Positions 3,976 through 14,866 of a stretch of 64,000 bases of DNA are shown piece by piece (the first letter of the stretch is position 1; each line of letters opens with the position of its first letter). The position numbers were made by a program, and so were the translations under genes. Source of the DNA: a virus; the IMG/VR virus record IMGVR_UViG_3300032315_000979, positions 1 through 64,000 of that record; one strand, 5' to 3'. Under the pieces are notes generated by a model. It searched no databases, had not been told where the DNA came from, and was given only the letters and a program-made list of their open reading frames with translations.

Positions 3976-4291
3976 AAAGACTGCAGTAAAGCTAGACAAA
4001 AAGACAGAGCAAGAACAATTGATTCAAGGAGCGATTAATGGAAATTATAGCTTATTGATTCCTTGCCAGGATGCAAAATTTGTTTATGTAAGAAATCCAC
4101 TTACAGGCAAAATTACTCATTTTGAAACTAATAAGCCTGAGTTTGTTTCTTGTATAAAGGAACTAGCTGATCTTGGGTTGAACGATAAGCTGGAGAAAGA
4201 CTTCTATGATTTGGGTGCGCTTAAGGATCAGAGATGGCTTCAGGTATTGGATTTCCTAAGAGTTGAGAATGCATTGGAGTTTATAGCATGA
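3965..4291 (+). CDS. Hypothetical protein (108 aa)
   Basis: Basic N-terminus (MATKKTAVKLDKK) then an acidic soluble domain. Overlaps both neighbours, so it is part of one translational unit. Function unknown. Confidence 0.7.
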   Translation: MATKKTAVKLDKKTEQEQLIQGAINGNYSLLIPCQDAKFVYVRNPLTGKITHFETNKPEFVSCIKELADLGLNDKLEKDFYDLGALKDQRWLQVLDFLRVENALEFIA

Positions 4292-4530
4292 CAACAGTAA
4301 AAGAAGCGATCAAGATGCTAAATGATCATTTAGACCAAGATGAAGAAATTTGTATTGCATGGTGGTCTAAAGAATTGTTTGAAGGTGCATTTGATTCAGA
4401 CATAAAAGAAGAAGCTTGGGTAATGGTAGTCAATGAGTTTGATGATATGACTATATATCCTCAAGAGTTAATATATAACCAAATAGTACAAACATTAGAC
4501 GATAACAAAGGTTGGGTTGAAAATGAGTAA
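4288..4530 (+). CDS. Hypothetical acidic protein (80 aa)
   Basis: ATGA overlap with the previous gene. Small, strongly acidic, with WW and W residues in a compact domain. The next small gene starts inside its 3' end. Confidence 0.65.
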   Translation: MTTVKEAIKMLNDHLDQDEEICIAWWSKELFEGAFDSDIKEEAWVMVVNEFDDMTIYPQELIYNQIVQTLDDNKGWVENE

Positions 4531-7778: not shown

Positions 7779-7914
7779 ATACGCACTCCATGTAATATTA
7801 CAAGGGCGTATTATTACAATGGTGTGTAATATTACAGGGCAACAAACGGATAAAAAAATGGGTAAAACAATAGATCACTGATCTAATATTTTTCAGGTTA
7901 ATTTTTGGGCAAGG

Positions 7915-7943
7915 TTGGTTTTCATTGGATTAGACGATAGAAT
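7915..7943 (+). promoter_or_regulatory. Promoter for the 8022 gene
   Basis: TTGGTT (7915-7920) and TAGAAT (7938-7943) with 17-bp spacing, about 75 nt before the TTG start. Confidence 0.5.
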
Positions 7944-8021
7944 GGTTAACGAAATGAGAGATTAATTTCTCAAATAAATAAATAATCAAATAAACAATTA
8001 AACAAAGAATAGGACAAAACA

Positions 8022-8357
8022 TTGGAACAAGAAATGCAATTTGAATTTATTAACGAAAATGAAATGGAATTCGCTAAGAGAGGGCGTAAATCTAATCTTG
8101 ACGAAAAGTTTGTTAATTCAGTTAAAGAAATGATCAAAAAAAATGATTCGGTTGCGAAAAAGCAATTTGTTATCATTTCAAGTTTGGCAATTCCTTCGGA
8201 TTTGACTGACATTAAGGATATCAAAAACTATAAGGCTAAAGTTGCAGCAATGCTTCGTACATTGGCTAAGAATTTGGGTTATGGTTCAGAAATCCGTTGG
8301 CATAAGGAAACAGTTCCAGCTATTCGTTTTACTTCAGTTAAGGGTAAAACTAAATAA
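8022..8357 (+). CDS. Family A RGRKS protein, copy 1
   Basis: The TTG at 8022 is preferred because AGGA lies 7 nt upstream; ATG 8034 would be 19 nt away. It shares with the 8828 and 9692 products an acidic start (FEFINENEMEF), an RGRKS motif at about residues 23-27, a basic helix and a C-terminal beta part ending in a basic tail. RGR motifs insert into the minor groove in AT-hooks and in the actinobacterial silencer Lsr2, where RGR is also followed by a short helix. A DNA-binding role at the TAA-NN-TTA sites around it is inferred. This copy is rightward, the other two leftward. Confidence 0.75.
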   Translation: MEQEMQFEFINENEMEFAKRGRKSNLDEKFVNSVKEMIKKNDSVAKKQFVIISSLAIPSDLTDIKDIKNYKAKVAAMLRTLAKNLGYGSEIRWHKETVPAIRFTSVKGKTK

Positions 8358-8385
8358 ATAGCTAAAACTATAGTCTCTCATTTCA

Positions 8386-8420
8386 ATAAGGCTTAGGGTA
8401 AAACCTAAGCCTTATTTTTT
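8386..8420 (+). terminator. Terminator of the 8022 gene
   Basis: Perfect 12-bp stem ATAAGGCTTAGG (8386-8397) with 8404-8415, 6-nt loop, then a T tract. Confidence 0.9.
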
Positions 8421-8549
8421 TGTCTAAAAATAAGGTTGTCATAAAGGTTCACATAAAGATTTGAATTAGAATTCGGAATTGGATTTGGTCTAATGTAAAG
8501 ATACAGATAAGCATACTCAATTAGATAAAGGTTTCGTGTAATATTACAT

Positions 8550-8585
8550 GGGTGTAATTTTTTGAATAGACCAAAAATTACACCC
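8550..8585. repeat. Long hairpin 1
   Basis: GGGTGTAATTTTT (8550-8562) pairs perfectly with 8573-8585; loop TGAATAGACC. First member of the hairpin family; a TAA-NN-TTA site lies on either side. Confidence 0.85.
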
Positions 8586-8666
8586 GCCCGCTGTAATATT
8601 ACAGGAAAGCCAGGCAGCTTCTGTAACTTTACAGCCGTGTAACATTAGGGTAGGCAAAAAAAATAT

Positions 8667-8751
8667 CCCCAACAAGCGGGGTTATTCAGACAACGCTGTA
8701 ATCAGTATGCCTACTGTTACAGGGCTGGAATATTATGCCCGCTTGCTGGGG
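8667..8751. repeat. Nested inverted repeats
   Basis: CCCCAACAAGCGGG (8667-8680) pairs 13 of 14 with 8738-8751. Inside, CTGTAA (8696-8701) pairs with 8717-8722 and CAGTA with TACTG around loop TGCC. Lies downstream of the leftward 8828 gene, so it could be its terminator; it also resembles a cruciform. Confidence 0.7.
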
Positions 8752-8827
8752 TTCTGTTGCCAAGCGTAATTTTAGACGCTCCGTACTTACCGTCAGACGC
8801 TCAGAGTTGAGTTACTATGGTGTAACT

Positions 8828-9124
8828 TTACTTGCGCTTTTCGGTGCGAACCACTTGCGGTACGCCTGATGACGACCACATGATGGTTACTGTAACATTA
8901 GCCTGCTTGCTAGCAGAACGGATAATAGCACCGTAACGGGCTTTATCAGTCTTTGCTTTGGCAGACTTCATGTCAACCGAAAAGGAAGTCAACTTGAGCG
9001 CTTGCTTTGGTGTAAGTTTACGCAACGCCTCAACAAGTTGAGGCGGGACGGTTGACTTACGACCACGGCTAGTAAACTCAAGTTCGTTTTCACCAATGAA
9101 CTCAAACGAGAAATCGTCAGCCAT
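8828..9124 (-). CDS. Family A RGRKS protein, copy 2
   Basis: 98 aa with the acidic start FSFEFIGENELEF, then RGRKS at residues 19-23, VPPQLVEAL, and a C-terminal beta part with IIRSASKQANV, SSGVPQVVR and a KRK end. Closely related to the 9692 product and more distantly to 8022. The stop codon lies in GTAAAGTTAC and a GTAACTAA element touches the start codon. Likely a DNA-binding protein, by analogy with the Lsr2 RGR loop. Base composition is much more GC-rich than in the 8022 copy. Confidence 0.75.
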   Translation of the reverse strand: MADDFSFEFIGENELEFTSRGRKSTVPPQLVEALRKLTPKQALKLTSFSVDMKSAKAKTDKARYGAIIRSASKQANVTVTIMWSSSGVPQVVRTEKRK

Positions 9125-9233
9125 TAGTTACATCCTTGTAAGTTTTGGTTGGCAATAACACTATGCCTAGTGTTACCTCGGTGTAATTTTTGGAAGGTAC
9201 ACCACCTACCCATCCCCAACTTTGGTGCGGACA

Positions 9234-9279
9234 CCGTGAGCCTACAAGTCTAAAATTACCGACTTGCCGTACCTCACGG
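9234..9279. repeat. Hairpin presenting the motif in its loop
   Basis: CCGTGAG (9234-9240) pairs with 9273-9279, and CAAGTC (9245-9250) with GACTTG (9261-9266). The apical loop is TAAAATTACC, a TAA-NN-TTA site. It would be exposed single-stranded in RNA. Confidence 0.6.
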
Positions 9280-9522
9280 CTGGGGTCAACCGCTAACCAA
9301 AAGTGTAGCCAAACCCAAACCCAAAAACTCAGCATTTCTAATATTACAGAACTTTTTTTCGGGTCTATTTGGGGACATAATCCCCTAAAGTTACATCTAA
9401 TGTTACAGAAGCTTATACCGTAAAGATAAAGGTCTAGAATTACATTCCTGTAAAGTTACAGAGAGCCCAGGCGGTGTTCCGTAATGTTACTAAAAATAGT
9501 GAGAGCTCCTGTAATATTACAA

Positions 9523-9560
9523 CGGGTGTAACTTTTAGTGGAGAGCAAAAGTTACACCCG
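9523..9560. repeat. Long hairpin 2
   Basis: CGGGTGTAACTTTT (9523-9536) pairs perfectly with 9547-9560; loop AGTGGAGAGC. A TAA-NN-TTA palindrome follows directly. Confidence 0.9.
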
Positions 9561-9632
9561 CTCGCCTGTAATATTACACGGACTTTGGGCAAAAAAAATT
9601 ACAACCATGTAATTTTACTACTGTGTAATAAT

Positions 9633-9672
9633 AGAGAGCCTGTCTCGCAGGGGTTACGAGACAGGCTACTCT
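9633..9672 (-). terminator. Terminator after the leftward 9692 gene
   Basis: AGCCTGTCTCG (9637-9647) pairs perfectly with 9657-9667, with an outer AGAG/CTCT extension. It follows the 9692 stop on the leftward strand. Confidence 0.7.
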
Positions 9673-9691
9673 TACGGGCGTGTAACTTTAG

Positions 9692-9973
9692 TTACTTGCG
9701 CACGATCTGCGGCACGCCATCTGGCGACCAGAGAATTTGCACCTTGACCTTCGCCTGCACACTTGCCGAGCGAATGGTTGCGCCGATCCGAGCCTTGTCG
9801 GTCTTGACCGTTGCTGACTTGACATTGACCTTCAAGGCTGACAAGCGAACGCCCTTGCCCTTTGGCATGTCTTTGATCGCCTGCACGAGTGCTGGTGGAA
9901 CATTAGACTTGCGACCTCGTTGGGTGAATTCCATTGAATTTTCGTCAATGAATTCAAATTCAAACTCTGACAT
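9692..9973 (-). CDS. Family A RGRKS protein, copy 3
   Basis: 93 aa: MSEFEFEFIDENSMEF, RGRKS at residues 20-24, VPPALVQAI, KTDKARIGATIRSASVQA, and SPDGVPQIVRK. About half the residues match the 8828 product, so they arose by duplication. The stop codon is embedded in GTAACTAAAGTTAC. The upstream leader carries a GGC/GCC hairpin with an AATAAC loop like those of two other leftward genes. No TAA-NN-TTA site was noticed inside this gene, unlike its neighbours. Confidence 0.75.
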   Translation of the reverse strand: MSEFEFEFIDENSMEFTQRGRKSNVPPALVQAIKDMPKGKGVRLSALKVNVKSATVKTDKARIGATIRSASVQAKVKVQILWSPDGVPQIVRK

Positions 9974-10438
9974 GGTTTATCCTTAGTGATCTCACCCCGC
10001 AGGGTGTGTCTTGGCGTTATTGCCTTGACATGAATAACGATAAGGCTTAGGGATAAGAATTGCAAGGTAATCAGATCGTAACAATGCCCGCAAACCCAAT
10101 GCCCATATGAGATATATCACCGACATTGTTACAATATGGTTACAACTCTAAAGTTACACGAGAAACTCTAAAATTACATGATCGGGGCTAATGTTACACA
10201 GAGCGGCGAGATCGCCCAGATCGGGGGTCGTAAAGTTACACGAGTGTAAAGTTACATTCTCATAAAGGTGAGATCAGGTAATGTTACATCCATAAAACAT
10301 ACTAAACTAATGATACACACGGGTAATATTACATCTGGTGTAAGTTTTAGTGGAGCGCAAAACTTACACCAGCCCCCAAGCTCTGTAATTTTACAGCCTG
10401 GTAACTTTACTGGTGTGTAACTTTACTCGTGTGTAACT
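9974..10438. other. 465-bp gap with clustered motifs and hairpin 3
   Basis: No gene. About 11 TAA-NN-TTA sites, including four in tandem at 10383-10440, one CATAAA...ACTAAACTAA block at 10290-10310 and hairpin 3. Confidence 0.65.
10335..10372. repeat. Long hairpin 3
   Basis: CTGGTGTAAGTTTT (10335-10348) pairs perfectly with 10359-10372; loop AGTGGAGCGC, nearly the same as in hairpin 2. The inner C of hairpin 2 is G here and its partner has changed to match. Confidence 0.9.
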
Positions 10439-10924
10439 TTACACGAGCCGTTCGCTGTATTCTTGGCTATGCTCTAGAGCCCATGAGAGACCACCCTCTT
10501 TACCATAGACCCAATCGGTCTCCATGTCGGTCTCAATTTCTAAATCGGGCGTAGTGTAGAAATCGTTATAGACAGGCGTATTCTCTATTGCTAAAGTTAC
10601 GGTAGGGTAATTTTCCCTAACCTTGTCAAAGAAATCCCGCACCGCATTATCCCCGATAGATTTCAGCAAGGCTAATTGACAAGCGAAAATGTCGGGCTCT
10701 GTAATTTTAGGCAGGATTAGTTGCCCACCCTTACCCCTACCCGTAGGCAATAAATTACCGTAAATATCGGTAGGGAATACATCTGTCAAAACTTCCTTGA
10801 CTGTAACTTTACGCAGACCAAACCATTTGGCAATATCTGCAGGCGGTACGCCATCATGATACATCTCGCAGATATCATCTACAAGGTCGGCTGTAAGTTT
10901 AGACACTCTCATTTTTGTCTCCAT
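10439..10924 (-). CDS. Helix-turn-helix protein (161 aa)
   Basis: Residues about 8-42 (LTADLVDDICEMYHDGVPPADIAKWFGLRK onward) read as a homeodomain-like helix-turn-helix of the kind found in phage regulators and small terminases. The C-terminal half is acidic. ATG 10924 follows GTAAAATTAC; ATG 10912 with GGAG 7 nt upstream is an alternative. The stop TAA lies in TGTAAAGTTACA. The coding sequence itself holds several TAA-NN-TTA sites. It overlaps the small gene upstream, so the two are coupled. Candidate regulator of this block. Confidence 0.65.
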   Translation of the reverse strand: METKMRVSKLTADLVDDICEMYHDGVPPADIAKWFGLRKVTVKEVLTDVFPTDIYGNLLPTGRGKGGQLILPKITEPDIFACQLALLKSIGDNAVRDFFDKVRENYPTVTLAIENTPVYNDFYTTPDLEIETDMETDWVYGKEGGLSWALEHSQEYSERLV

Positions 10925-11082
10925 GTAATTTTACCCTTGAGCGGGTTTGGTTTGGTTACAGCGTTCAGTAATTTTACAGTAGAGTTTTCACCTTTGGTTA
11001 GTCCTGGCGAAATCTCTTTGTATTCCTTTGGTGTAACTTTAGATAGGCTTTGTAATATTTCTAGTATGTGTCGTAATTTCAT
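10909..11082 (-). CDS. Small hypothetical protein (57 aa), probably leaderless
   Basis: MKLRHILEILQSLSKV..., charged and soluble, ending WRQK. TAGAAT at 11089-11094 lies 6 nt before ATG, so transcription would start at or next to the start codon; there is no ribosome site. The gene overlaps the next start (10924). The coding region carries three TAA-NN-TTA sites. Confidence 0.55.
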   Translation of the reverse strand: MKLRHILEILQSLSKVTPKEYKEISPGLTKGENSTVKLLNAVTKPNPLKGKITWRQK

Positions 11083-11088
11083 AAGCTT

Positions 11089-11130
11089 ATTCTAGCCTAT
11101 TCTCGTGTAATGTTAGAAGTAATTTTAGGC
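11089..11130 (-). promoter_or_regulatory. Composite promoter C
   Basis: Reading leftward: CCTAAAATTAC, then TTCTAACATTACACGA, 8 nt, then TAGAAT as -10. The same block with the same 8-nt gap stands before the 11855 and 12626 genes. The motif pair covers the -35 position, where no normal -35 box is present. Confidence 0.6.
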
Positions 11131-11243
11131 AATTTTTGAGGTATATAAAGGGTAAGTAACATTACTATTACGATAAAACCTGCTCTGTAATATTAGTTTC
11201 ATAAACTTACACTAAACTAATCTTACAAGGGTCTAATGTTACT

Positions 11244-11283
11244 GCGGGCGTAATATTTGGTGAAGCTCAAATATTACGCCCGC
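11244..11283. repeat. Long hairpin 4
   Basis: GCGGGCGTAATATTTG (11244-11259) pairs perfectly with 11268-11283; loop GTGAAGCT. Its stem differs from hairpins 2 and 3 at several places, always with compensating changes. Confidence 0.9.
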
Positions 11284-11323
11284 CTGTAATTTTACAGTCC
11301 TGTAATTTTAGACAGAGACAAAG

Positions 11324-11356
11324 AAAAACCCCTGCGGAGGGCGCAGGGGTTTTCTT
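11324..11356 (-). terminator. Terminator of the 11371-11855 operon
   Basis: AAAACCCCTGCG (11325-11336) pairs with 11342-11353, 5-nt loop. A/T tracts on both sides allow use in both directions; it follows the 11371 stop. Confidence 0.85.
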
Positions 11357-11370
11357 ACTCGCTTGTAAGT

Positions 11371-11613
11371 TTAGAACTCAGTGAGTATGTCCTCAGGCAA
11401 CTCATCAGTGATATCTCGCTCATCGGCATCGTCAATGTCATCGTCTAACACTTGTGCAAAAATTACACTCATGTCAGGGTCATCGCCATTGTTGTTTTTG
11501 ATAGAACGCAATATTTTACCTAGATGCTCAACGCTCTCGGCTTCATACAGAAAACTATCTGCCCATTCTGCATCGCCTTGCTCAAATTGCCAAGATACTT
11601 CGTAAGTGTTCAT
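11371..11613 (-). CDS. Acidic hypothetical protein (80 aa)
   Basis: Strongly acidic (Asp-rich DDDIDDADERD near the end), beginning MNTYEVSWQFEQGD. Acidic small phage proteins are often DNA mimics or inhibitors, but nothing here proves that. The start is preceded by GGGAGTAAAATTAC, so a TAA-NN-TTA site fills the space between ribosome site and ATG; the stop TAA is also inside a site. Confidence 0.65.
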   Translation of the reverse strand: MNTYEVSWQFEQGDAEWADSFLYEAESVEHLGKILRSIKNNNGDDPDMSVIFAQVLDDDIDDADERDITDELPEDILTEF

Positions 11614-11630
11614 GTAATTTTACTCCCTTG

Positions 11631-11855
11631 TTATTTTTGGGTCTCGCCCAAGATTTGTGAAAATGAATGTTCGCTATCTTCAATTTGTGTTGTTGTGTTT
11701 AGGACACCACAAAACTTACACACGGCATGGATTTGGGTAATTGTAAACTTACCATGCTGTACTTCTACGGAATTGCTACCGATGAATGAATACTCATGCG
11801 GTAGGTTATCCCGATAATTTATGCGGTTCCTAATCTTACAAGTGAGATATGACAT
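11631..11855 (-). CDS. Small protein with a CKFC knuckle (74 aa)
   Basis: Residues about 46-50 read CKFCG with another Cys near residue 6 and His residues nearby, a possible zinc site. First gene of an operon with 11371 (17-nt gap). A TGTAACTTTAC site touches the start codon; upstream is a GGC/GCC hairpin with an AATAAT loop and composite promoter A. Confidence 0.6.
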   Translation of the reverse strand: MSYLTCKIRNRINYRDNLPHEYSFIGSNSVEVQHGKFTITQIHAVCKFCGVLNTTTQIEDSEHSFSQILGETQK

Positions 11856-11885
11856 TGTGTAACTTTACCCTTCGGTCTAATGGCT

Positions 11886-11947
11886 GGCATTATTGCCAAC
11901 ACAAACATCGTAGCAAATTTTCGTGTAATAGTAGAGGTAATTTTAGA
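11886..11947 (-). promoter_or_regulatory. Composite promoter A with leader hairpin
   Basis: Leftward: TCTAAAATTAC, then CTCTACTATTACACGA, 8 nt, then TACGAT (11907-11912). The transcript would start with a leader holding a short GGC/GCC hairpin just before GAAGGG. Same layout as promoter B. Confidence 0.6.
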
Positions 11948-12029
11948 TTATTTTTTAGTCAAAAAGCGGTAAGTAATTTTACGATCATAAACATATATTA
12001 AACTAAAGTTACAGCTCCCTAATGTTACA

Positions 12030-12069
12030 GCAGGTGTAACTTTTGGAAGAGCGCAAAAGTTACACCTGC
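12030..12069. repeat. Long hairpin 5
   Basis: GCAGGTGTAACTTTTG (12030-12045) pairs perfectly with 12054-12069; loop GAAGAGCG. Confidence 0.9.
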
Positions 12070-12106
12070 CTGTAATTTTACAGCCGTGTAATTTTAGACC
12101 AGGCAA

Positions 12107-12141
12107 AGAAAAAGCCCCCGCTTTTGGCGGGGGCTTTTCTT
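12107..12141 (-). terminator. Terminator of the 12156-12626 operon
   Basis: AAAAGCCCCCGC (12110-12121) pairs with 12127-12138 around TTTTG. Follows the leftward stop at 12156. Confidence 0.9.
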
Positions 12142-12155
12142 ACTTGCTTGTAACT

Positions 12156-12248
12156 TTAGTCTCGCTCAAAGTACCAAGCAAGTGCTACGGGGATAATTAT
12201 CCATGACCAAAGAATTACAACCCCGTAGATGATTTTGATGATGCTCAT
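12156..12248 (-). CDS. Membrane microprotein (30 aa)
   Basis: ATG 12248 follows GGGAGTAAAATTAC, the same start context as 11371. The product begins MSIIKIIYG, is one hydrophobic helix with three Trp and ends YFERD. The stop TAA lies inside CTAAAGTTAC. The bracketing by motifs, as for every neighbour, is strong support that this very short frame is real. Confidence 0.6.
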   Translation of the reverse strand: MSIIKIIYGVVILWSWIIIPVALAWYFERD

Positions 12249-12269
12249 GTAATTTTACTCCCTTGTAAT

Positions 12270-12626
12270 TTATGAATTGGCTAATTCTGCGATTAGTTGG
12301 CGAAATGCGTCAGTTGGCAAAGACAAGTCCTGCCCGACAATGTGCGAAACTTTTTCGCTCATGCGGTCAAGGCTAATCACTAGGTCAAGTGAATTGATTA
12401 ATACGGTGGATACCCAGTCACGATTATCCATAGGCATATCGTCTGCTGTAACTTTACCCTCCAGTAATTTTGCAAGGTTGGTAACGCTATCGGCATAGTC
12501 GCAACCGTCAGTCACATAGTCAAAGTCAATTTCCAGTATGTCAAAAGTTACAGTAGTGAAAATTTCTGTAACGGTGCAAAGGCTCTCATTTAGGTAGAGC
12601 ATTTTCTTTTGGAATTCGGTGGTCAT
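12270..12626 (-). CDS. Hypothetical acidic helical protein (118 aa)
   Basis: Acidic, mostly helical, no recognised motif. ATG is preceded by GAAGGGTAAAATTAC; the stop is in TAAATTAC. Internal sites include GGGTAAAGTTAC. It heads an operon with the 30-aa membrane gene, 21 nt apart. Confidence 0.65.
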   Translation of the reverse strand: MTTEFQKKMLYLNESLCTVTEIFTTVTFDILEIDFDYVTDGCDYADSVTNLAKLLEGKVTADDMPMDNRDWVSTVLINSLDLVISLDRMSEKVSHIVGQDLSLPTDAFRQLIAELANS

Positions 12627-12651
12627 GTAATTTTACCCTTCGGATTATTGG

Positions 12652-12714
12652 TCGGCATTATTACCGACACAAACAGCATATCAAATCCTCGTGTAATAAT
12701 AGAGGTAATTTTAG
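12652..12714 (-). promoter_or_regulatory. Composite promoter B with leader hairpin
   Basis: Leftward: CCTAAAATTAC, then CTCTATTATTACACGA, 8 nt, then TATGCT (12675-12680). A CGG/CCG hairpin with an AATAAT loop precedes CCGAAGGG. Nearly the same as promoter A over more than 70 nt although the genes differ. Confidence 0.6.
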
Positions 12715-12830
12715 GCTATTTTTGAGCCTATTTTCGGGGTTGGTAAGATTAGATTTCGTAAAGTTACAAGCTTCTAAAGTTACAAGTAGAAATATGTACT
12801 CCACATAAAGGTAGAGTGTCTAATATTACA

Positions 12831-12870
12831 GCAGGTGTAAGTTTAGCATAGCGCCTAAACTTACACCTGC
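12831..12870. repeat. Long hairpin 6
   Basis: GCAGGTGTAAGTTTAG (12831-12846) pairs perfectly with 12855-12870; loop CATAGCGC. Both arms contain a full TAA-NN-TTA site. Confidence 0.9.
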
Positions 12871-13084
12871 CTGACTGCCTCATAAAGATTTACTAAACTA
12901 ATATTACAGCACAGTAACATACACAGTGGTGTAATGTTACACGGTATACCATGTATGCCCATGTAATATTAGAGTGAATAATTATGCAAGGTAATGCATA
13001 ACTAATTAGTTGCGCCTGGTCTTACATGGTGGTAGTATTTGGTTGTTGGGCAATTCCGCTCAACCAGTAATGAAAGGTAGTCCA

Positions 13085-13540
13085 ATGGCTACAAGTAAGG
13101 CGAAAGCCAAAGTGTCGGTGAAAGTTGCAGTGTCGGCTACTGCAAATAAGGTAGACAAAGCCCGTACCACTAATGCCCGCAAAGGCGTAAAGCAACACTA
13201 TTCCGATAGCAAAGCCGTTGCGTTCTGGCAACTCTTAGCGTTGGTAGTCAAGTCACCACTAATCGCAAAGGACTTGCGTGTTGCAACTAAGAACAACGCT
13301 CAAGCCCGTAGGCAATGGTGCATAGACAATGGTGCAGTAGTGGTATCTCGTGCAGATGTCACACACAAGGTACAAGGCGATAGACCAGACAATGCAGTGA
13401 GGGCAAGACTTATCTCACTTGCCAAAGTAGACGCAAGCGCAAAGCGTGTCGGCTATATCCGTGTGCTAGACGCATACACTGCAAGTCGTAATCCAAAGCA
13501 TGCAGACATAGACAAGGTATATCTATATCGCATTGCGTAA
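13085..13540 (+). CDS. Family B basic protein, copy 1
   Basis: ATG 13085 is chosen because GAAAGG lies 9-14 nt upstream and because MATSKAKAK matches the start of copy 2. 151 aa with a Lys/Ala-rich histone-like tail (residues 1-40) and a C-terminal domain sharing KDLRVATKNNAQARR, RPDNAVRAR and VGYIRVLDAYTA with the 13949 product. Probably binds DNA or RNA. It faces copy 2 across a highly structured GC-rich gap. Confidence 0.75.
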   Translation: MATSKAKAKVSVKVAVSATANKVDKARTTNARKGVKQHYSDSKAVAFWQLLALVVKSPLIAKDLRVATKNNAQARRQWCIDNGAVVVSRADVTHKVQGDRPDNAVRARLISLAKVDASAKRVGYIRVLDAYTASRNPKHADIDKVYLYRIA

Positions 13541-13948
13541 CGCTTAGGCGTTGCAATAAAGATACGGGGCATAGATGCCCCGTATTTTTTTTGTATGCGT
13601 TGTTGCGTAAACACAACACTGATTACTTGTTGCATAAAGACAACAAGTGCCCATGTAATATTACATCATATACTAAATATGGTACTCGTTGCATGTATGC
13701 AACGGCGGGTGCGTCTTCTACGCTAGCTGGGAAGCTCCACCCGCCCAACCATGCTAAAAACATTCAAACCCCTCGCATGGTTGGGTTGGTGCAAGCCAGC
13801 TCAGGGCGGGGGGTCGCCCTGAGCCGAACCTGAACGGGGTTCGCATAAACGCTTTCATAAAGAGACACACACACTAAAAATGAGACCAACTCGCCGTAAG
13901 GTTGGCTGGGTGTTTGGGGGGGGTTGCCCCCCCCCCGAACCTATCGGA
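13541..13948. other. 408-bp GC-rich gap with many perfect inverted repeats
   Basis: Between the convergent family B genes. After the terminator come CTTGTTG/CAACAAG, CGTTGCAT/ATGCAACG, an 11-bp pair (13744-13754 with 13775-13785), a 10-bp pair (13799-13808 with 13815-13824), and G8 at 13916-13923 facing C10 at 13927-13936. No believable ORF. Candidate replication origin, packaging or structured RNA region. Confidence 0.6.
13561..13592 (+). terminator. Terminator of family B copy 1
   Basis: ATACGGGGCA pairs with TGCCCCGTAT around TAGA, followed by eight Ts. Confidence 0.95.
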
Positions 13949-13964
13949 TCAAGCGATCCGATAG
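13941..13964 (-). terminator. Hairpin over the stop codon of family B copy 2
   Basis: CTATCGGATC pairs perfectly with GATCCGATAG around AAGC; the leftward TGA stop lies at the hairpin. The C10/G8 hairpin follows, so the pair may end transcription. Confidence 0.65.
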
Positions 13965-14428
13965 ACATACACCTTTTGGCTGTCGGGGTGTGTCGGGTTT
14001 TTCTTGGCGGTGTAAGCGTCAAGCACTCGGACATATCCAACCTTTTTGGCGTTCGGGATTACCGAGCGTAGGGAATGGATCCGAGCCCGAACGGAATTGT
14101 CAGGTCGCTCGGCTGGCGTAGCCTGCCCAGCCTTCACGCCGTCAATTTTCTGAACGGCGAGCCAATCAACCTTCACAGCCTTATTCATGACACACCATGA
14201 ACGGCGAGCGCTGGCGTTATTTTTGCTGGCGACCCGTAGATCCTTGTCAATGATTTTTTGCCCTGAAACGCTGGCGAGCAAACCGATCAACAATTCCGCA
14301 GGCTTATCTGTGTAGAATTGCTTGACCCCTGCCGTAGCGTTCTTGGTGTTTTTTGCCGTGATCTTGGTGATCTCGGTTTTTGCCGAGACCGTAGCCTTGA
14401 CACTAGCCTTCACTTTTTTCGTTGCCAT
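13949..14428 (-). CDS. Family B basic protein, copy 2
   Basis: 159 aa, MATKKVKASVKATVSAK start with a long Lys/Ala tail, then KDLRVASKNNASARR, RPDNSVRAR and VGYVRVLDAYTA as in copy 1, ending VYVYRIA. AAGGGG lies 9 nt before ATG. Clear duplicate of the 13085 gene in the opposite direction. GC-rich compared with the rest of the window, suggesting a separate origin for this block. Confidence 0.75.
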   Translation of the reverse strand: MATKKVKASVKATVSAKTEITKITAKNTKNATAGVKQFYTDKPAELLIGLLASVSGQKIIDKDLRVASKNNASARRSWCVMNKAVKVDWLAVQKIDGVKAGQATPAERPDNSVRARIHSLRSVIPNAKKVGYVRVLDAYTAKKNPTHPDSQKVYVYRIA

Positions 14429-14793: not shown

Positions 14794-14866
14794 GGATGGT
14801 TACTATAACGGTCCTAAGATAGCGAAATTCGTTCTGCTCTGGTGATAGTGCAGATCACGATTGCCG
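14794..14866 (+). ncRNA. 23S rRNA helix 69-71-like element
   Basis: 14802-14833 matches bacterial 23S rRNA (E. coli numbering from A1913) at 30 of 32 positions: ACTATAACGGTCCTAAG, then A for G, TAGCGAAATTC, then G for C, TT. This is the universally conserved helix 69 loop and helix 70, also the I-CeuI target. After it, sequence identity falls but an H71-like hairpin remains (CTGC-T-CT pairing with AG-T-GCAG at about 14834-14853), then CACGATTGCCG versus CACGAATGGCG in rRNA. A CATCC/GGATG hairpin lies directly upstream (14785-14798). Flanks are phage DNA. Whether it is transcribed is unknown. Confidence 0.8.

Follow-up and report, generated by a model that had tools for sequence, protein, structure and literature searches.

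Why should one short palindrome be packed by the dozen into a single block of a phage genome? The question is raised by an array of TAANNTTA sites in the window, i.e. the first 64,000 bases of virus record IMGVR_UViG_3300032315_000979 (108,687 bases in total). In our judgement there is an even chance that the block is an operator array which switches or silences a host-takeover module lying in a terminal repeat, with a small phage protein family designated R as the probable binder. The array and its most regular run are as follows:

7793..13663, no strand: site array of 74 TAANNTTA palindromes, 72 of them as STAANNTTAS (motif counts)
10386..10441, no strand: run of four sites at exact 16-bp spacing

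By exact count, 74 sites were found at 7793-13656 and 52 in the remaining 58 kb of the window. A first-pass annotation had counted about 65-70 TAA-NN-TTA palindromes in 7790-13670 by hand, close to this number, and its expectation of one or two by chance was too low: dinucleotide-preserving shuffles of the block (n = 1,000) contained TAANNTTA at a mean of 5.0 copies (maximum 16). When a G or C was required on either side, as (G/C)TAANNTTA(G/C), 72 sites were counted in the block versus a mean of 0.8 (maximum 5) in the same shuffles. The remaining 102.8 kb of the 108.7-kb genome contains 19, three of which form one tandem trio at 97.4 kb. Synonymous-codon shuffles of the coding part of the block gave a mean of 1.2 sites (maximum 5) versus nine observed. 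Neither control, of the codon- and composition-preserving kind that the annotation had named as decisive, came near the observed counts, and a base-composition artefact was ruled out, as the annotation had argued. A simple tandem repeat was also rejected, as Tandem Repeats Finder (TRF) detected only short arrays in the block.

The specific core, STAANNTTAS (TGTAATATTACA in probe form), comprises 8 bp, and one or both of its halves are GTAA. The combination C...G was found at 3 of the 371 S...S sites of eight phages, below the expectation under independence (Fisher p = 0.007). Two outliers at 7793 and 7827 are followed by site-free DNA until 8539, dense sites to 12964 and one last site at 13656, so the borders, described earlier as abrupt, are fairly sharp and not absolute. 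Likewise, the block (41% GC), described earlier as GC-richer than the rest, is richer than its left flank (31-35%) but not than the 13-15 kb region (47-49%). Sites do occur in both coding and non-coding DNA, yet 65 of the 74 (~88%) are non-coding and nine lie within likely genes.

Relatives were retrieved by pattern scans and homology scans of IMG/VR. The motif search in related phages, suggested in the first-pass annotation, recovered the same dense array in about ten IMG/VR phages, with 26-72 sites per array. Over ten array phages, 465 of 492 sites fall in 38.4 kb of non-coding DNA and 27 in 17.7 kb of coding DNA. L018 and L048 carry almost only the perfect GTAANNTTAC, whereas other lineages accept one CTAA half. 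Cellular genomes were rejected as a source of the same array: 12 stretches were obtained, they belong to unrelated taxa, and all but L061 have few sites. In L061, a Bacteroidetes metagenome-assembled genome, a 48-bp tandem repeat at 4265-4496 fits a three-site pattern and is probably unrelated.

When sites were compared within three pairs of relatives, core positions (six per site) were unchanged in 743 of 750 cases, versus 1606 of 1760 for the flanks and the central NN (pooled Fisher p = 7e-17). Centre-to-centre spacings in eight phages peak at 16 bp (53 pairs) and 17 bp (18 pairs), and more weakly near 32-33 bp, although these distances are not fully independent, since units are duplicated. 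Nearly every unit also carries a dyad, GGGYGTAA...TTACRCCC, which has sites or near-sites in its arms and lies between the terminator of one transcription unit and the next gene. In the window, the dyads are:

8550..8585, no strand: dyad module 1, GGGTGTAA...TTACACCC
9523..9560, no strand: dyad module 2
10335..10372, no strand: dyad module 3
11244..11283, no strand: dyad module 4
12030..12069, no strand: dyad module 5
12831..12870, no strand: dyad module 6

RNA stems usually tolerate G-U pairs. Among 28 dyads from several phages, two-sided changes were found at 9 of the 14 pairs, and a single G-U occurred among the roughly 380 pairs formed; the examples were chosen as inverted repeats, so pairing as such is favoured in this set. 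From the near-absence of G-U pairs, the symmetry is read as that of duplex DNA. An RNA element was rejected on the same ground, and because no Rfam match was obtained apart from tRNAs. Together, these observations suggest that the palindromes behave as candidate protein-binding sites, under purifying selection at the DNA level.

The genes of the module are small and mostly on the minus strand, and the array fills their non-coding DNA. At genes D, F, G and H, a site lies exactly between the ribosome-binding site (RBS) and the ATG, and the TAA stops of R2, D, F and H are within a site. Over the ten phages, such exact placement was counted at 17 gene ends and 7 gene starts. The genes and their hairpins are as follows (lengths in amino acids, aa):

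8022..8357, plus strand: R1, RGRKS-type small protein of 111 aa at the left array edge, candidate binding protein (alternative ATG at 8034)
8828..9124, minus strand: R2, R-family paralog of 98 aa, TAA stop within site 8823 (structure model)
9692..9973, minus strand: R3, R-family paralog of 93 aa, with site 9683 immediately past its stop
10439..10924, minus strand: accessory gene H, 161 aa, with a weak, sub-cut-off DUF433 match, four internal sites, and site 10926 between RBS and start
11371..11613, minus strand: accessory gene D, 80 aa, acidic, stop within site 11366 and site 11615 directly before the start
11631..11855, minus strand: accessory gene E, 74 aa, site 11860 just upstream
12156..12248, minus strand: accessory gene F, hydrophobic 30-aa peptide, stop in site 12151, start adjoining site 12250 (read by eye)
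12270..12626, minus strand: accessory gene G, 118 aa, site 12628 between RBS and ATG
13085..13540, plus strand: S1, second array-associated family, 151 aa, in the site-free gap ahead of the last site
13949..14428, minus strand: S2, S1 paralog just beyond the array
11320..11358, no strand: GC-rich hairpin with flanking A and T runs after gene D, likely bidirectional terminator judging from sequence
12105..12141, no strand: GC-rich hairpin with flanking A and T runs after gene F, likewise a likely bidirectional terminator

The content of the module is variable. Very close relatives differ by whole small-gene units (window 10439-12626 versus L008 6890-8685, with D+E exchanged): the D+E unit of the window resembles that of L017/L009, and the close relative L008 has another D-like unit. 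These whole-unit differences mark the array module as a site of gene turnover. In phage T4, mobile promoter-stem-loop cassettes ("mobile regulatory cassettes") similarly place a repeated regulatory module between exchangeable small genes. They differ from the present dyad, whose symmetry, kept without G-U pairs, points to an element of DNA rather than of RNA. It could be proposed that the sites and dyads let small gene cassettes shuffle in the manner of the T4 cassettes, with regulation secondary; alignment blocks that break and restart around the modules fit this, as does the exchange of whole units. We consider it very improbable: single sites far from cassette borders are conserved too, no recombinase was noticed, and the breakpoints could be ordinary homologous recombination in repeats.

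The wider genome places the block. The record has identical 123-bp ends, which may be expected from the circularised assembly of a terminally repetitive genome and also from other circular maps. A B12-dependent type ribonucleotide reductase, DnaB, a DnaG-like primase, RecA and a WhiB regulator are encoded. WhiB is regarded as an actinophage marker (PMC10202952), and because of this gene the host is probably a freshwater actinobacterium. TerL is ~41% identical to that of Streptomyces phages of the Stanwilliamsviridae. The terminal repeats of this BE cluster share the layout of the block, i.e. a minus-strand small-gene module between a plus-strand early operon (with WhiB) and a minus-strand tRNA-Thr block, continued on the right by tRNA-Thr (-), glycosyltransferase (+) and ribonucleotide reductase (+), and they too are GC-richer than most of the genome (PMC5764925, PMC8612146). 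In Coruscant, the module that separates the WhiB-containing plus-strand operon from the minus-strand block is annotated in two copies, as it constitutes the direct terminal repeat. Because the gene order matches, the array block is most likely the same module as the Stanwilliamsviridae direct terminal repeat, with its motif multiplied several-fold.

The repeats of four cultured phages were examined: Coruscant, Yaboi, LukeCage and Mildred21 (MT711976, NC_048730, NC_048723, NC_042008; L062, L065, L066, L067). All four are GC-richer than the DNA after them, as reported for Coruscant (PMC8612146), and each has its own over-represented motif. These motifs (GGCGCCnGGCGCC; TGTCCGnnnCGGACA; CCGGGGCGG) differ from the one of the window, and no R-family match accompanies them. 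In three of the phages the motif is confined to the terminal repeats (24/24 copies in Coruscant, 18/18 in Mildred21, 43/43 in Yaboi), just as the array palindrome is confined to its module apart from the 97.4-kb trio. Each repeat holds 9-22 copies (12 in Coruscant and 9 in Mildred21, well separated). All of the copies listed are intergenic, with about one per gene unit; most follow the preceding stop codon by 25-50 bp and precede the next start codon by 50-100 bp. An intergenic palindrome beside the terminator and gene start of each unit is common to both groups. No description of such arrays or of module-confined palindromes was found in the open-licence literature, and the word "palindrome" is absent from those BE-cluster and Coruscant reports, the Lsr2/WhiB survey and the Nanopelagicales phage paper that were searched for it.

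Promoter-proximal copies raise the main rival explanation, which we hold to be unlikely: the sites could be activator or anti-silencing boxes, at which a protein replaces the -35 contact, like MotA at T4 middle promoters, and turns the module on. One repeated element is relevant:

11099..11140, minus strand (copies 11917-11958 and 12685-12726): upstream module D14, a site or near-site about 12 nt before a putative TANNNT -10-like box (boxes read by eye)

In all three copies of D14 the site or near-site ends 12 nt before the box, and the Streptomyces palindromes immediately precede the presumed promoter, at a distance of ~18 nt from -10-like boxes (also by eye). However, -10 boxes at that distance are not enriched genome-wide, and most sites are off promoters, i.e. 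at stop codons, in RBS-ATG gaps and in tandem runs, with a few inside genes.

A second motif of the intergenic DNA, CATAAAG, is clustered on the plus strand, is sometimes followed by TACTAAAC and possibly represents another regulatory element:

7726, 8440, 8452, 10261, 12804, 12881, 13633 and 13856 of the window, and 93911, 93948, 96408 and 97291 of the record, plus strand: CATAAAG

The density of the array could instead point to a structural or maintenance role, such as a centromere, a replication origin or a condensation region, coated by a protein that forms filaments and without a part in gene control. Phased sites are dense over 5-8 kb, with tandem 16-bp runs, and are found wherever coding constraint is weak; to our knowledge, the array is denser than any operator set, which counts for the same explanation. 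We nevertheless rate it as distinctly unlikely. One dyad is found per transcription unit, the same position is occupied in cultured relatives, whose repeats contain no more than 9-12 palindromes, well separated, and a second site cluster precedes a plus-strand operon. Partition, one of the functions put forward by the first-pass annotation, is disfavoured, as ParA/ParB were not found among the proteins examined (array genes and others, covering part of the proteins of the genome). Its proposal of a modification target found no support, since restriction to 5% of the genome, and there mostly to non-coding DNA, would not be expected of such a site. Silencing or regulation, the remaining suggestion, is favoured by the position of the dyad between terminator and next gene, as in the Streptomyces terminal repeats.

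If a phage protein binds the sites, the R family is probably that binder, because it co-occurs with the arrays and with the second site cluster. R proteins have an RGRKS motif followed by an IRxxAKxxG helix and a beta-hairpin (alignment A1), and were found in all 11 array records tested, with four copies in each of the long array genomes G000 (the present one), G001, G002 and G004. R1 (+), R2 (-) and R3 (-) are within the array, and R4 is near TerL. The only other site cluster of the genome, a trio with 14-bp spacing at 97,411-97,450, is 1.0 kb from R4 and falls in a 420-bp gap ahead of a plus-strand operon; in G001, G002 and G004 a lone site pair is found 1.1-2.0 kb from R4. Contigs picked solely for a trio nearly all encode R4, the exceptions being L033, L037 and L028 (a partial piece). 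The dedicated binding protein anticipated by the first-pass annotation is therefore well supported as a candidate, by purifying selection on the palindromic core at the DNA level, 16-17-bp phasing and strict co-occurrence with R.

In L033 (4054-4757) and L037 (4872-5575), GTAAAGTTAG recurs at 14-bp steps in a stretch poor in open reading frames (ORFs), apparently in an unrelated phage of 47% GC; no R-family match was obtained in this phage.

A host regulator or nucleoid protein might bind the sites instead, with the phage titrating or exploiting it and R as a passenger. The lack of a known DNA-binding domain in R would fit, but R and a site cluster coincide at two separate genome positions, motif and R are both lineage-specific, and relatives without R use other motifs; we give this explanation only a slight chance.

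The operator-array reading may be laid out as follows. GTAANNTTAC, in which one half may be CTAA, would be recognised by a DNA-binding protein that the phage encodes and that is probably a dimer. Cooperative binding of the R protein to dyads and tandem sites (16-17 bp, ~1.5 helical turns) would shut the module off, probably by promoter blocking plus roadblocks; the operator trio ahead of the plus-strand operon at 97.4 kb would be a further target of the same protein. The enrichment, conservation and spacing of the sites, the covarying dyads, the co-occurrence with R, the synteny and the confined palindromes of cultured relatives are observed, whereas binding, R as the binder and repression rather than activation are inferred. 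The dyads between terminator and next gene, the sites over promoters, RBSs and stops, the second cluster before the plus-strand operon and the 16-bp phasing are the reasons for reading the sites as repressive, and this anatomy suggests cooperative repression or silencing of an early module rather than partition, modification or an RNA function.

Several observations weigh against this reading. Searches of Pfam, PHROGs and PDB revealed no recognisable DNA-binding domain in R (weak scattered hits in Pfam and PHROGs, nothing significant in PDB), and its AlphaFold model (alpha-beta-alpha-beta-beta, pLDDT, the predicted local distance difference test, 80) is only loosely winged-helix-like. Families S, D and E also co-occur with arrays. 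No R-family member was found in the Streptomyces relatives, which must therefore use another binder. A -10 box at a fixed distance from the sites gave no general signal, the only strong peak being the next site at 16-17 bp. A repressor has no obvious need for more than 60 sites. Finally, as assembly collapses repeats, terminal repetition of the array block in this phage is inferred from synteny.

Identification of R by sequence or fold was abandoned, as only chance-level PDB hits were returned. No match to R was found in 50,697 phage records, and a BFVD search gave one clear relative (an uncharacterised uncultured-phage protein) plus weak matches. The S1/S2 family, found next to most arrays, has no Pfam or PHROG match. 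Beyond the array, window 14803-14840 resembles what we take to be the I-CeuI site region of 23S rRNA (ACTATAACGGTCCTAAGATAGCGAA), and short ORFs across it are matched in several relatives.

We know of no dense single-motif operator array in the terminal redundancies of SPO1 or T5. These modules share with the present one a long terminal repeat, which in SPO1 carries many small early host-takeover genes (PMC5764925; SPO1: PMC6873191). The stoperators of Cluster A mycobacteriophages, thought to block transcription, likewise represent a single repressor site repeated many times in the genome of an actinophage, but they are 13 bp long, asymmetric, strand-biased, present in up to ~30 copies genome-wide and bound by the immunity repressor (PMC6550527, PMC9283540). 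As in stoperator or operator arrays, motif copies exceed chance in the window and are mostly intergenic, at transcription-unit borders; an asymmetric 13-bp site spread over the genome was not found. The sites here are palindromic, about 70 in one 6-kb block plus one trio, in a phage without an identified repressor. The SPbeta repeated element (SPBRE) is also intergenic and was noticed in silico before MrpR, the phage protein dedicated to binding it, was found, though it comprises about ten scattered 15-bp sites and its binder is recombinase-like (PMC10516654). Multi-operator phages are thus already known, and what is new here is the density, the confinement and the likely binder.

A broader proposal, which we regard as having a modest chance at best, is that R is a new DNA-binding family coating the terminal-repeat module via 26-72 dyad-phased sites as a silenced domain, and that module-confined palindrome codes throughout the clade, Streptomyces relatives included, diverge with their binders and would give phage-specific self-recognition or immunity. 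The analysis links an extreme array of uncultured freshwater actinophages to the module-confined palindromes of well-studied Streptomyces phages and names the small protein family R as a candidate binder. Through these palindromes, what the 11-12-kb terminal repeats of the cultured phages do becomes directly accessible to experiment.

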